The position numbers and the translations under genes are program-made. Below are positions 31,252-33,240 of a stretch of 44,352 bases of DNA, piece after piece. Below the pieces are notes generated by a model. The model was not told the origin of the DNA. It did no database searches and was given only the letters and a program-made list of their open reading frames with translations. Source of the DNA: Myxococcales bacterium (GTDB lineage: Bacteria > Myxococcota_A > Polyangia > Polyangiales > Houyiibacteriaceae); the NCBI GenBank assembly GCA_024640845.1, contig JAHEEE010000001.1:1-44352 (forward strand). Reading direction: 5' to 3'. Each line of letters begins with the position of its first letter. Position 1 is the stretch's first letter.

Positions 31252-32145
31252 GTGGGTGGTTTCCCGCATTTGGCCTACGGAACGCCCCGTAAGTTGCCTA
31301 AGCCAGACAGCCTTCCGGGGCGGGTGGTGGTGCTGGACGTGGCCTTTGCCGCGAATGCAGGGGGCGCGAGCTACGAAAAGACGACGCTCCCGTTCATTCA
31401 GGGGCTGGGCAATCGGCTAGCCATGTGGGTGGACCACCACGACCACGATAAACACGCCGACTACGCGGGCGATGCCCGCTTCGTTCTGAGGACGAAGGCG
31501 CAGCACGGCGCATGCCCGGAGATGGTCACGCCAGAACGGGTGGAGGCGGCGGGGCCCGTCGACACGATCTGCTGCCATCTCGATTTCGACGGGTTGTGCT
31601 CGGCGGCCAAGTGGATCCGCGGCGGGGTCGAACCCTACGAGGGAGCCGACGACGACGCCCGAGCGATCGACACGCGGCTCGGCGAGCCCAGCGAGCGCGC
31701 CCGCGTGCTCGACCGTGCGCTACGAGCGCGGCCGCGTGACGAGGCGCTTCGCGGCTTGATGGTGCGCTATCTCGCCGATGGTGCGAGCGACGCGGTGATG
31801 TACAGGGACTTCCAGCGTGCCGCGGCAGCGCTCGAAGCGATGGAGCGAGAATCCAAGCGGCTCTCAGCCCGTTACCAAGTACGCGCAGGACTCGCGATCT
31901 GTGACGCCACCCGCCGAGATGGCCCCTACGACAAGACCGAGCTCTTGCTGATCGGCCAGCGCCTGGCGCCGATCTCTCTGGTGCACGACGAGACCACGGT
32001 GACGGTGGCTGCCAGTTTTGACAGCGGTATCGACCTCGTTCGCGCCCTCGGCCTCAATGGCGGGATGCCGACCCGCGTCAGCGTTGCCGCCAAGCGACTC
32101 GATGAAGTCATTGAGGTTTTGAGCGGTTTCGAGGCTGCGAGCTGA
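31252..32145 (+). CDS. DHH-family phosphoesterase-like protein with rearranged motif order
   Basis: 297 residues from a GTG at 31252; a TTG at 31267 is an alternative, and a stop lies at 31225. The first third has VVVLDVAFA, then the DHH motif WVDHHDHDKH, then QHGACPEMV, resembling DHH motifs II, III and IV. The segment CHLDFDGLCSAAKW, which resembles motif I (DxDG), comes afterwards, at about residue 110. In RecJ/NrnA-type proteins motif I is N-terminal. The C-terminal region ends LGLNGGMPTRVSVAAKRL, faintly like a DHHA1 glycine motif. It may hydrolyse phosphodiester or phosphoanhydride bonds in nucleotides, fitting its adenosine deaminase neighbour 9 bases downstream (inference). Confidence 0.65.
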   Translation: MGGFPHLAYGTPRKLPKPDSLPGRVVVLDVAFAANAGGASYEKTTLPFIQGLGNRLAMWVDHHDHDKHADYAGDARFVLRTKAQHGACPEMVTPERVEAAGPVDTICCHLDFDGLCSAAKWIRGGVEPYEGADDDARAIDTRLGEPSERARVLDRALRARPRDEALRGLMVRYLADGASDAVMYRDFQRAAAALEAMERESKRLSARYQVRAGLAICDATRRDGPYDKTELLLIGQRLAPISLVHDETTVTVAASFDSGIDLVRALGLNGGMPTRVSVAAKRLDEVIEVLSGFEAAS

Positions 32146-32154
32146 GCCGCTATA

Positions 32155-33240
32155 ATGATGGGCATGGAGCTCTCGCTCGCGGACATCGAACGCCTTCCCA
32201 AGACCGACCTGCACGTTCACTTGGACGGCTCGCTCCGCTTGTCGACCATGCTCGAGCTCGCGGAGCGCCAGGGTGTCGAGCTTCCTGCCGACACGGAGGA
32301 GGGTCTCGCCAAGGCGCTCCATTGCGGCGAGCATACCGGCTCGCTGGTCGAATACCTCAAGGCCTTCGACACCACGCTCACGGTGCTCCAGACGGAAGAC
32401 GCACTGTTTCGAGTCGCCTACGAGCTTGCCGAGGATGCGGCGGCCGAAAACGTCCGGTACATGGAGGTGCGGTACTCCCCGATGCTGCACACGCGCGGAG
32501 GCCTCCGACTGACGACCGTGGTCGAGGCGGTGTTGGCCGGGCTTTGGGAGGCGCAGAAGGACCACGGCATCGTCGTCAACGTGATCCTATGCGGGATCCG
32601 CAACATCTCCCCCGAGTCGTCCGTAGAGATGGCGCAGCTCGCGGTCGCCTACAAGAACCGGGGCGTCGTCGGCTTCGACCTCGCTGGAGCCGAGTACGAC
32701 CATCCGGCCAAACACCACGTCAAGGCGTTCAAGCTGGTGCACAACAACAACATTGCCGTGACCATTCATGCGGGCGAGGCATATGGACCGGCCTCCGTCC
32801 ACCAAGCCATTCATGTCTGTGGGGCGCACCGGATTGGGCATGGGTGTCGTCTGCGCGAGGATGGAGATCTGCTGCACTACGTGAACGATCACCGCATCGC
32901 GCTCGAGTGCTGTCCGTCGTCGAACGTACAGACAGGCGCTGTCCGGGACCTCCGGAGCCACCCTCTCAAGCTCTACCACGACCTCGGACTGCGAGTGACG
33001 GTCAACACCGACAACCGGTTGATCACCGATACGACGGTTTCACGCGAGCTTTGGCTCTGTCACACGCAGATGGGCCTCAACCGTGACGACATCCACCGGA
33101 TCATCATCAACGGCTTCAAGGCCGCGTTTCTGCCGTTCCACCAGAAGCAGACGATGGTTCGGTCGGTGTCTCGGGAGCTGTCCAACGCAGTACAGGCTTC
33201 CGAGCCGCCTGCGTCTCGTCGAGTCGACGCAAACGCGTAG
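32155..33240 (+). CDS. adenosine deaminase family protein
   Basis: 361 residues. The amidohydrolase metal motif HVHLDGSLR is near the N-terminus; GIRNISPESS, GFDLAGAE, the catalytic IHAGEAYGP and HRIGHGCRL follow, and CCPSSNVQTGAV and VTVNTDNR close the active site in the order of adenosine deaminases. It would convert adenosine or a related aminopurine nucleoside to inosine. A second ATG at 32164 (MELSL) is an equally good start. It follows the DHH-type gene by 9 bases. Its last 125 bases overlap the convergent glycine dehydrogenase gene. Confidence 0.9.
   Translation: MMGMELSLADIERLPKTDLHVHLDGSLRLSTMLELAERQGVELPADTEEGLAKALHCGEHTGSLVEYLKAFDTTLTVLQTEDALFRVAYELAEDAAAENVRYMEVRYSPMLHTRGGLRLTTVVEAVLAGLWEAQKDHGIVVNVILCGIRNISPESSVEMAQLAVAYKNRGVVGFDLAGAEYDHPAKHHVKAFKLVHNNNIAVTIHAGEAYGPASVHQAIHVCGAHRIGHGCRLREDGDLLHYVNDHRIALECCPSSNVQTGAVRDLRSHPLKLYHDLGLRVTVNTDNRLITDTTVSRELWLCHTQMGLNRDDIHRIIINGFKAAFLPFHQKQTMVRSVSRELSNAVQASEPPASRRVDANA

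Follow-up and report, generated by a model that had tools for sequence, protein, structure and literature searches.

An apparently circularly permuted family of DHH-DHHA1 proteins in myxobacteria

The window analysed here, a stretch of 44,352 nucleotides from a Myxococcales bacterium (contig JAHEEE010000001.1), contains a gene for a protein of 297 amino acids which apparently belongs to a real and widely conserved DHH-DHHA1 family that is circularly permuted. The motifs I, II, III and IV of the DHH proteins are all present (D140 being taken as motif IV by its position), but their order is II-III-I-IV and not I-II-III-IV, and we therefore regard the protein as a permuted variant and not as an ordinary DHH member. 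The original prediction had placed the DxDG segment of motif I about 50 residues behind the DHH motif, and this segment indeed follows the DHH motif with a gap of about 45 residues. VVVLD occupies residues 25-29, DHHDHDKH residues 61-68, HGACPEMV residues 85-92 and HLDFDGLCSAA residues 109-119. The protein ends after the DHHA1 domain and has neither the OB-fold nor the length of RecJ (about 560-700 amino acids). The relevant features are the following, with conservation given for the aligned family members:

31252 to 32145, forward strand: gene of the permuted DHH-DHHA1 protein (297 amino acids), an open reading frame with 28 loci in other genomes and under purifying selection
31267 to 31299, forward strand: N-terminal strand (residues 6-9 in the model) and the conserved PRKLP, corresponding to beta2 in ordinary DHH domains; whole-protein structural alignments begin here, past beta1-alpha1 of the targets
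31324 to 31350, forward strand: motif II, VVVLDVAFA (residues 25-33), on predicted strand 25-28 with the putative ligand D29 (63/63)
31429 to 31455, forward strand: motif III, VDHHDHDKH (residues 60-68), at the end of predicted strand 56-61; D61, H62 and H63 in 63/63; in ordinary DHH proteins the segment profile matches the DHH motif
31504 to 31524, forward strand: HGACPEM (residues 85-91), with a predicted helix (88-91) after strand 77-79, the helix after beta5 and not motif IV; C88 in 63/63
31564 to 31617, forward strand: relocated motif I unit of predicted strand 105-108, HxDxDG loop (H109, D111, D113) and helix 112-122; H109, D111, D113 and G114 in 63/63; a fragment that begins at residue 104 aligns to the N-terminal chain parts with motif I
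31645 to 31683, forward strand: probable motif IV, DDDARAIDTRLG (residues 132-144), predicted helix 132-141 with the putative ligand D140 (63/63), by analogy with NrnA D156 and RecJ D223
31864 to 32121, forward strand: DHHA1 domain (about residues 205-290), matching known DHHA1 domains in the fragment model
32059 to 32073, forward strand: GGMPT in place of the nanoRNase GGGH, the histidine being absent; invariant (63/63)
32155 to 33240, forward strand: gene for an adenosine deaminase, starting 9 bp past the stop of the permuted DHH gene (TIGR01430, 335.9 bits with a cut-off of 216.55; PF00962)

HGACPEMV had been counted among motifs II-IV, an assignment that we have to revise: HGACPEM is not motif IV, and D140 of AIDTR, past motif I, is by analogy the most likely aspartate of motif IV.

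The gene and its family

The open reading frame starts with a GTG, aligned with an ATG in one relative (L012), and is present as a single copy in its own genome. Scanning one genome per species we found 28 further loci, all of them in myxobacterial or deltaproteobacterial/uncultured MAG records. Phylum-wide, 98 of 377 genomes carry the permuted protein, 95 of these belonging to the window's own class and three to one other family; every match had an E-value of about 1e-100 or better, and intermediate matches were not seen in any of the 377 genomes. Within the myxobacterial class of the window the protein is found in 58 of 78 genomes. Relatives were absent from the viral contigs, phages and plasmids searched, and among viral structure models, where we looked for a permuted homologue, DHH matches were obtained only at a TM score of 0.56 or less.

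Two alignments of the family were made, the first with 23 rows and the second with 63 rows. Residues D29, D61, H62, H63, D64, C88, H109, D111, D113, G114 and D140 are identical in all 63 members, and the search for relatives sharing the motif order, which had been suggested as a check, showed this unusual motif order in every one of them.

Because searches with Pfam, NCBIfam and PDB sequence models gave no credible assignment of the protein, the family is effectively unannotated; assignment to a different family by a profile search had been named beforehand as grounds for rejecting the DHH reading, and neither Pfam nor NCBIfam provided one. With the Pfam model PF01368 (DHH) the window protein had no match up to an E-value of 10, and 2 of 23 relatives were matched (best E-value 0.2), under the cut-off. 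Weak Pfam matches to RNase_E_G and TPR_14 (E 0.1-0.2) were dismissed as chance.

Predicted fold

An AlphaFold2 model of the full protein, based on 23 sequences, reached a pLDDT of 93.7 and a pTM of 0.90. Its first half comprises strand 6-9, strand 25-28 (motif II), helix 41-55, strand 56-61 (motif III), helix 66-71, strand 77-79 and helices within 88-100; then come strand 105-108 and helix 112-122 (motif I), helix 132-141 (AIDTR), more helices and an alpha/beta C-terminal domain. Foldseek returned 18 PDB matches at E<=1e-3, all of them DHH or DHHA1 proteins, among them the PAP phosphatase 8a8k, PggH 7d62, NrN, RecJ, RecJ-Cdc45, DhhP and NrnA, and the top VIA match was the PAP phosphatase (Z 14.5, rmsd 3.6 A, 247 aligned residues). 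Judged from the model, the fold of the permuted family is that of the DHH-DHHA1 proteins; the predicted structure is assigned to the alpha/beta core of DHH proteins, a fold whose parallel sheet has five strands, by the model itself, the Foldseek matches and VIA Z values of up to 14.5. The comparison with NrnA and RecJ, likewise suggested at the outset, thus yielded a confident DHH-DHHA1 model with both proteins among the PDB matches.

The known proteins share the fold but not the motif order. PggH, a pGpG phosphodiesterase of Vibrio cholerae (PDB 7d62; VIA Z 10.8), and the NrnB/COG2404-type nanoRNases are similar to the permuted family in their DHH-DHHA1 architecture and length, yet their motif I is N-terminal and the sequence similarity is not significant; moreover NrnB keeps the GGGH in DHHA1 which the permuted family lacks. 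Motif I of NrnB, a protein also used as a query, reads HxDxDG as in the permuted family. The PAP phosphatase of Methanothermococcus has the conventional order and 15% identity, and the alignment starts at its residue 23, past motif I. NrnA, Pde2, DhhP and TM1595 (nanoRNases and dinucleotide phosphodiesterases) have the ligand set H-D-D / D / DHH / D and the DHHA1 fold in common with the permuted family, but the order I-II-III-IV and GGGH where the permuted family has GGMPT. The ssDNA exonuclease RecJ has the same core fold (Z 13) and a motif I of equal spacing, DxDxD instead of HxDxD; unlike the permuted family it is much larger, with an extra OB-fold, further motifs and the conventional order.

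Evidence for the circular permutation

The DHH superfamily (RecJ, NrnA, Cdc45, prune, family II pyrophosphatase) shares one strand topology, 2-1-3-4-5 (PMC4846377). In ordinary members the sheet has the order 21345, strands 1 and 3 end in the metal ligands and strand 4 ends in the DHH; in DrRecJ the metal ligands are D79, D81 and D83 (motif I), D135 (II), H159 (III) and D223 (IV) (PMC4846377); those of NrnA are H20, D24, D26, D80, H103 and D156 (PMC5593865).

A second AlphaFold2 prediction was made for residues 104-297 alone, starting at the HLDFDG strand (pLDDT 92.0, pTM 0.77). The best Foldseek match of this fragment is PggH, and its DHHA1 domain (90-194 of the fragment model) superimposes on TM1595, NrnA, DhhP and GdpP with Z 9-11 and rmsd 2.2-3.1. 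The first aligned residue of the target, for the whole protein and for the fragment respectively, is 26 and 6 in PggH, 23 and 0 in 8a8k, 98 and 73 in DrRecJ (5f55), 99 and 75 in TthRecJ (1ir6), 62 and 37 in RecJ-Cdc45 (7bhi), 50 and 25 in MjRecJ2 (7ykv) and 51 and 25 in PfRecJ (5x4h). The whole-protein alignments hence start past strand 1 and the following helix of the targets (the motif I unit), and the alignments of the fragment extend from the motif I side of the targets to their DHHA1 ends. This shift of 20-26 residues is the size of a single strand-helix unit, namely the motif I unit; since the motif I ligands of DrRecJ are D79, D81 and D83, only the fragment alignment covers its motif I. 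The fragment alignments including motif I have rmsd values of 5-7 A or more, and strand 105-108 (beta1) is absent from the fragment model. In the model of the whole protein no strand is found ahead of the beta2 counterpart.

The aligned ranges are those expected from the circular permutation put forward in the original prediction; this proposal has to be narrowed in that only the alpha/beta core (motifs I-III) appears permuted, with motif IV and DHHA1 in their usual places. Going by the models, the protein is very probably a DHH-DHHA1 protein with a circularly permuted Rossmann-like core. Our confidence is high for the predicted order and fold and moderate for a working two-metal site.

Proposed active site

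We propose that the strand-helix unit of motif I (HxDxDG) would have moved from the N-terminus to a position between the post-beta5 helix and the motif IV helix, giving the chain order beta2 - II - III - beta5 - I - IV - DHHA1, and that the beta1 strand would still be inserted in the 2-1-3-4-5 sheet, with beta2 on one side and beta3 on the other. On this arrangement two Mn/Mg ions would be bound by H109, D111, D113, D29, H62 and D140, with H63 as a candidate general base, and a short nucleotide would occupy the DHHA1 domain as substrate; the most likely candidates are short oligoribonucleotides and linear dinucleotides (pNpN, for instance), from which NMPs would be released. Each of the six positions expected to bind metal is invariant (63/63), and the HxDxDG has the spacing of the RecJ DxDxD with the histidine in first place as H20 in NrnA. 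D29 represents motif II, H62/H63 both DHH histidines and D140 the probable motif IV. What the data show directly is the motif order, the conservation, the fold and the aligned ranges; the convergence of the ligands, catalysis and the substrate are inferred.

Distribution and likely function

The co-distribution of the permuted protein with Orn and NrnA was analyzed across the same 78 genomes of the class. Eighteen genomes have the permuted protein only, 16 have it together with Orn, 12 with NrnA and 12 with both; those without it have NrnA only (13), Orn and NrnA (5) or none of the three (2, being 83% and 70% complete). NrnA is present in 18 of the 20 genomes without the permuted protein as compared to 24 of the 58 with it (Fisher p 1.7e-4, kinship ignored). 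As the distribution complements that of NrnA and Orn, we therefore propose a short-oligonucleotide/dinucleotide phosphodiesterase. Such a putative substrate class is an even call, a nanoRNase-like role is our best guess and confidence in the exact substrate is low; since the GGGH histidine is missing in 63/63 members, the substrate may differ from that of the nanoRNases. The genome of the window itself also carries Orn, NrnA and a RecJ-like gene. In searches for both Orn and NrnA, three genomes of the class (f17, f18 and f2) had neither; their oligoribonucleotides might be cleared by the permuted protein.

Several other DHH proteins were noted. The genome of the window encodes a second, divergent one (L083; contig C131, 37836-38792) of conventional order, IDIFNGDADGICAL ... 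LDISFDKN ... YVDHH, which is below the Pfam DHH cut-off and resembles the permuted family in motifs I to III; proteins of this type occur in 7 of 112 genomes of the phylum. The same genome has a RecJ-sized DHH-DHHA1 gene on contig C135 and, on contig C139 (L082), a DHH-DHHA1 protein with a CBS-like pair behind it and another CBS-like open reading frame next to it (by eye). In other classes of the phylum we found PggH/NrnB-like proteins with a CPDG motif I (YHAGCPDGFGAAW) and GGGGH (L125-L128, L131, L138, L139, L143, L145 and L153). In the window's class, the genomes sampled gave no conventional PggH/NrnB-like proteins, only DHHA1-level matches; these proteins apparently occur where the permuted family is missing.

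Alternative explanations

A permuted enzyme could also act on a single small nucleotide, which might be a 3',5'-bisphosphate (pAp or another) or a modified nucleotide that supplies the neighbouring adenosine deaminase. The deaminase gene, 9 bp downstream, is probably co-transcribed with the permuted DHH gene, and the pair recurs in several genera (e.g., L021, L042, L055 and L046), an adjacency which weakly points to purine-nucleotide turnover; the PAP phosphatase as the top structural match and the replacement of GGGH by GGMPT are in keeping with a small substrate too. However, adenosine deaminase needs adenosine and DHH enzymes release AMP, so that the link would be indirect; the pairing is missing in most of the divergent relatives, and 18 genomes keep the permuted protein without Orn and NrnA. 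On balance we consider a small-nucleotide substrate rather unlikely.

It is improbable, in our judgement, that the DHH fold is unpermuted, with HLDFDG an unrelated conserved loop, the true motif I lost or degenerate and an inactive or altered site formed from motifs II, III and IV only. Sequence profiles alone cannot separate the two motif orders. A profile of segment 20-100 (II-III) scores 50 conventional DHH proteins above shuffled/reversed decoys (p 5e-6 to 6e-14) and, in most of the cases listed, falls on or beside their DHH motif; a short motif I profile separates only seven L083-type proteins, in which motif I precedes II-III, the reverse of the permuted family. When the motif I segment was moved to the front in silico, 3 of 8 members matched Pfam DHH (profile about 4-5 to 76-78) below the curated cut-off, and two control arrangements gave no Pfam DHH match. 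With hhalign the native and rearranged orders obtained low and near-identical scores against NrnA, L083-type and PggH-like profiles, and an HMM search of the PDB found a DHH match in neither order. The support for the permutation from sequence profiles is weaker than that from the structural alignments. Yet a lost motif I is difficult to reconcile with a segment predicted as strand - HxDxDG - helix, with H109, D111, D113 and G114 invariant (63/63) and the HxDxD spacing of RecJ D79/D81/D83, with a fragment beginning with HLDFDG whose alignments to PggH, RecJ and 8a8k start at the motif I side of these proteins, and with a whole protein that has no strand ahead of the beta2 counterpart.

Although the assembly behind the window is fragmented (145 contigs), an assembly error, frameshift or spurious open reading frame that scrambled the motifs has a negligible probability and is already refuted by independent genomes: the 63 members come from many separate assemblies, a full-length match is also present in the single-contig genome G172, and the gene has no internal stops and is under strong purifying selection, with 119-131 synonymous and 26-35 nonsynonymous codon changes relative to four close relatives and third positions dominating.

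Conclusions

In the openly licensed literature we found no description of a permuted DHH or RecJ domain, as had been presumed, an absence which is not proof; a phage paper with both words deals with the permutation of methyltransferases (PMC7824862). Tentatively, and with somewhat less than even confidence, we suggest that the family is the first described circularly permuted DHH phosphoesterase and a core enzyme of one myxobacterial class which would clear oligonucleotides where NrnA and Orn are missing, GGMPT implying a new way of holding the substrate. The stable and widely kept lineage, with a rewired chain and retained ligands, would mean that the DHH active site tolerates permutation. 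The permutation would explain why profile searches miss the family, and other hidden permuted DHH enzymes may exist. The nanoRNases act in a step of RNA decay whose enzymes are described as essential in some bacteria (PMC12709177); should the permuted protein serve as the main nanoRNase of those 18 genomes where neither Orn nor NrnA was found, it would fill a gap in this step.
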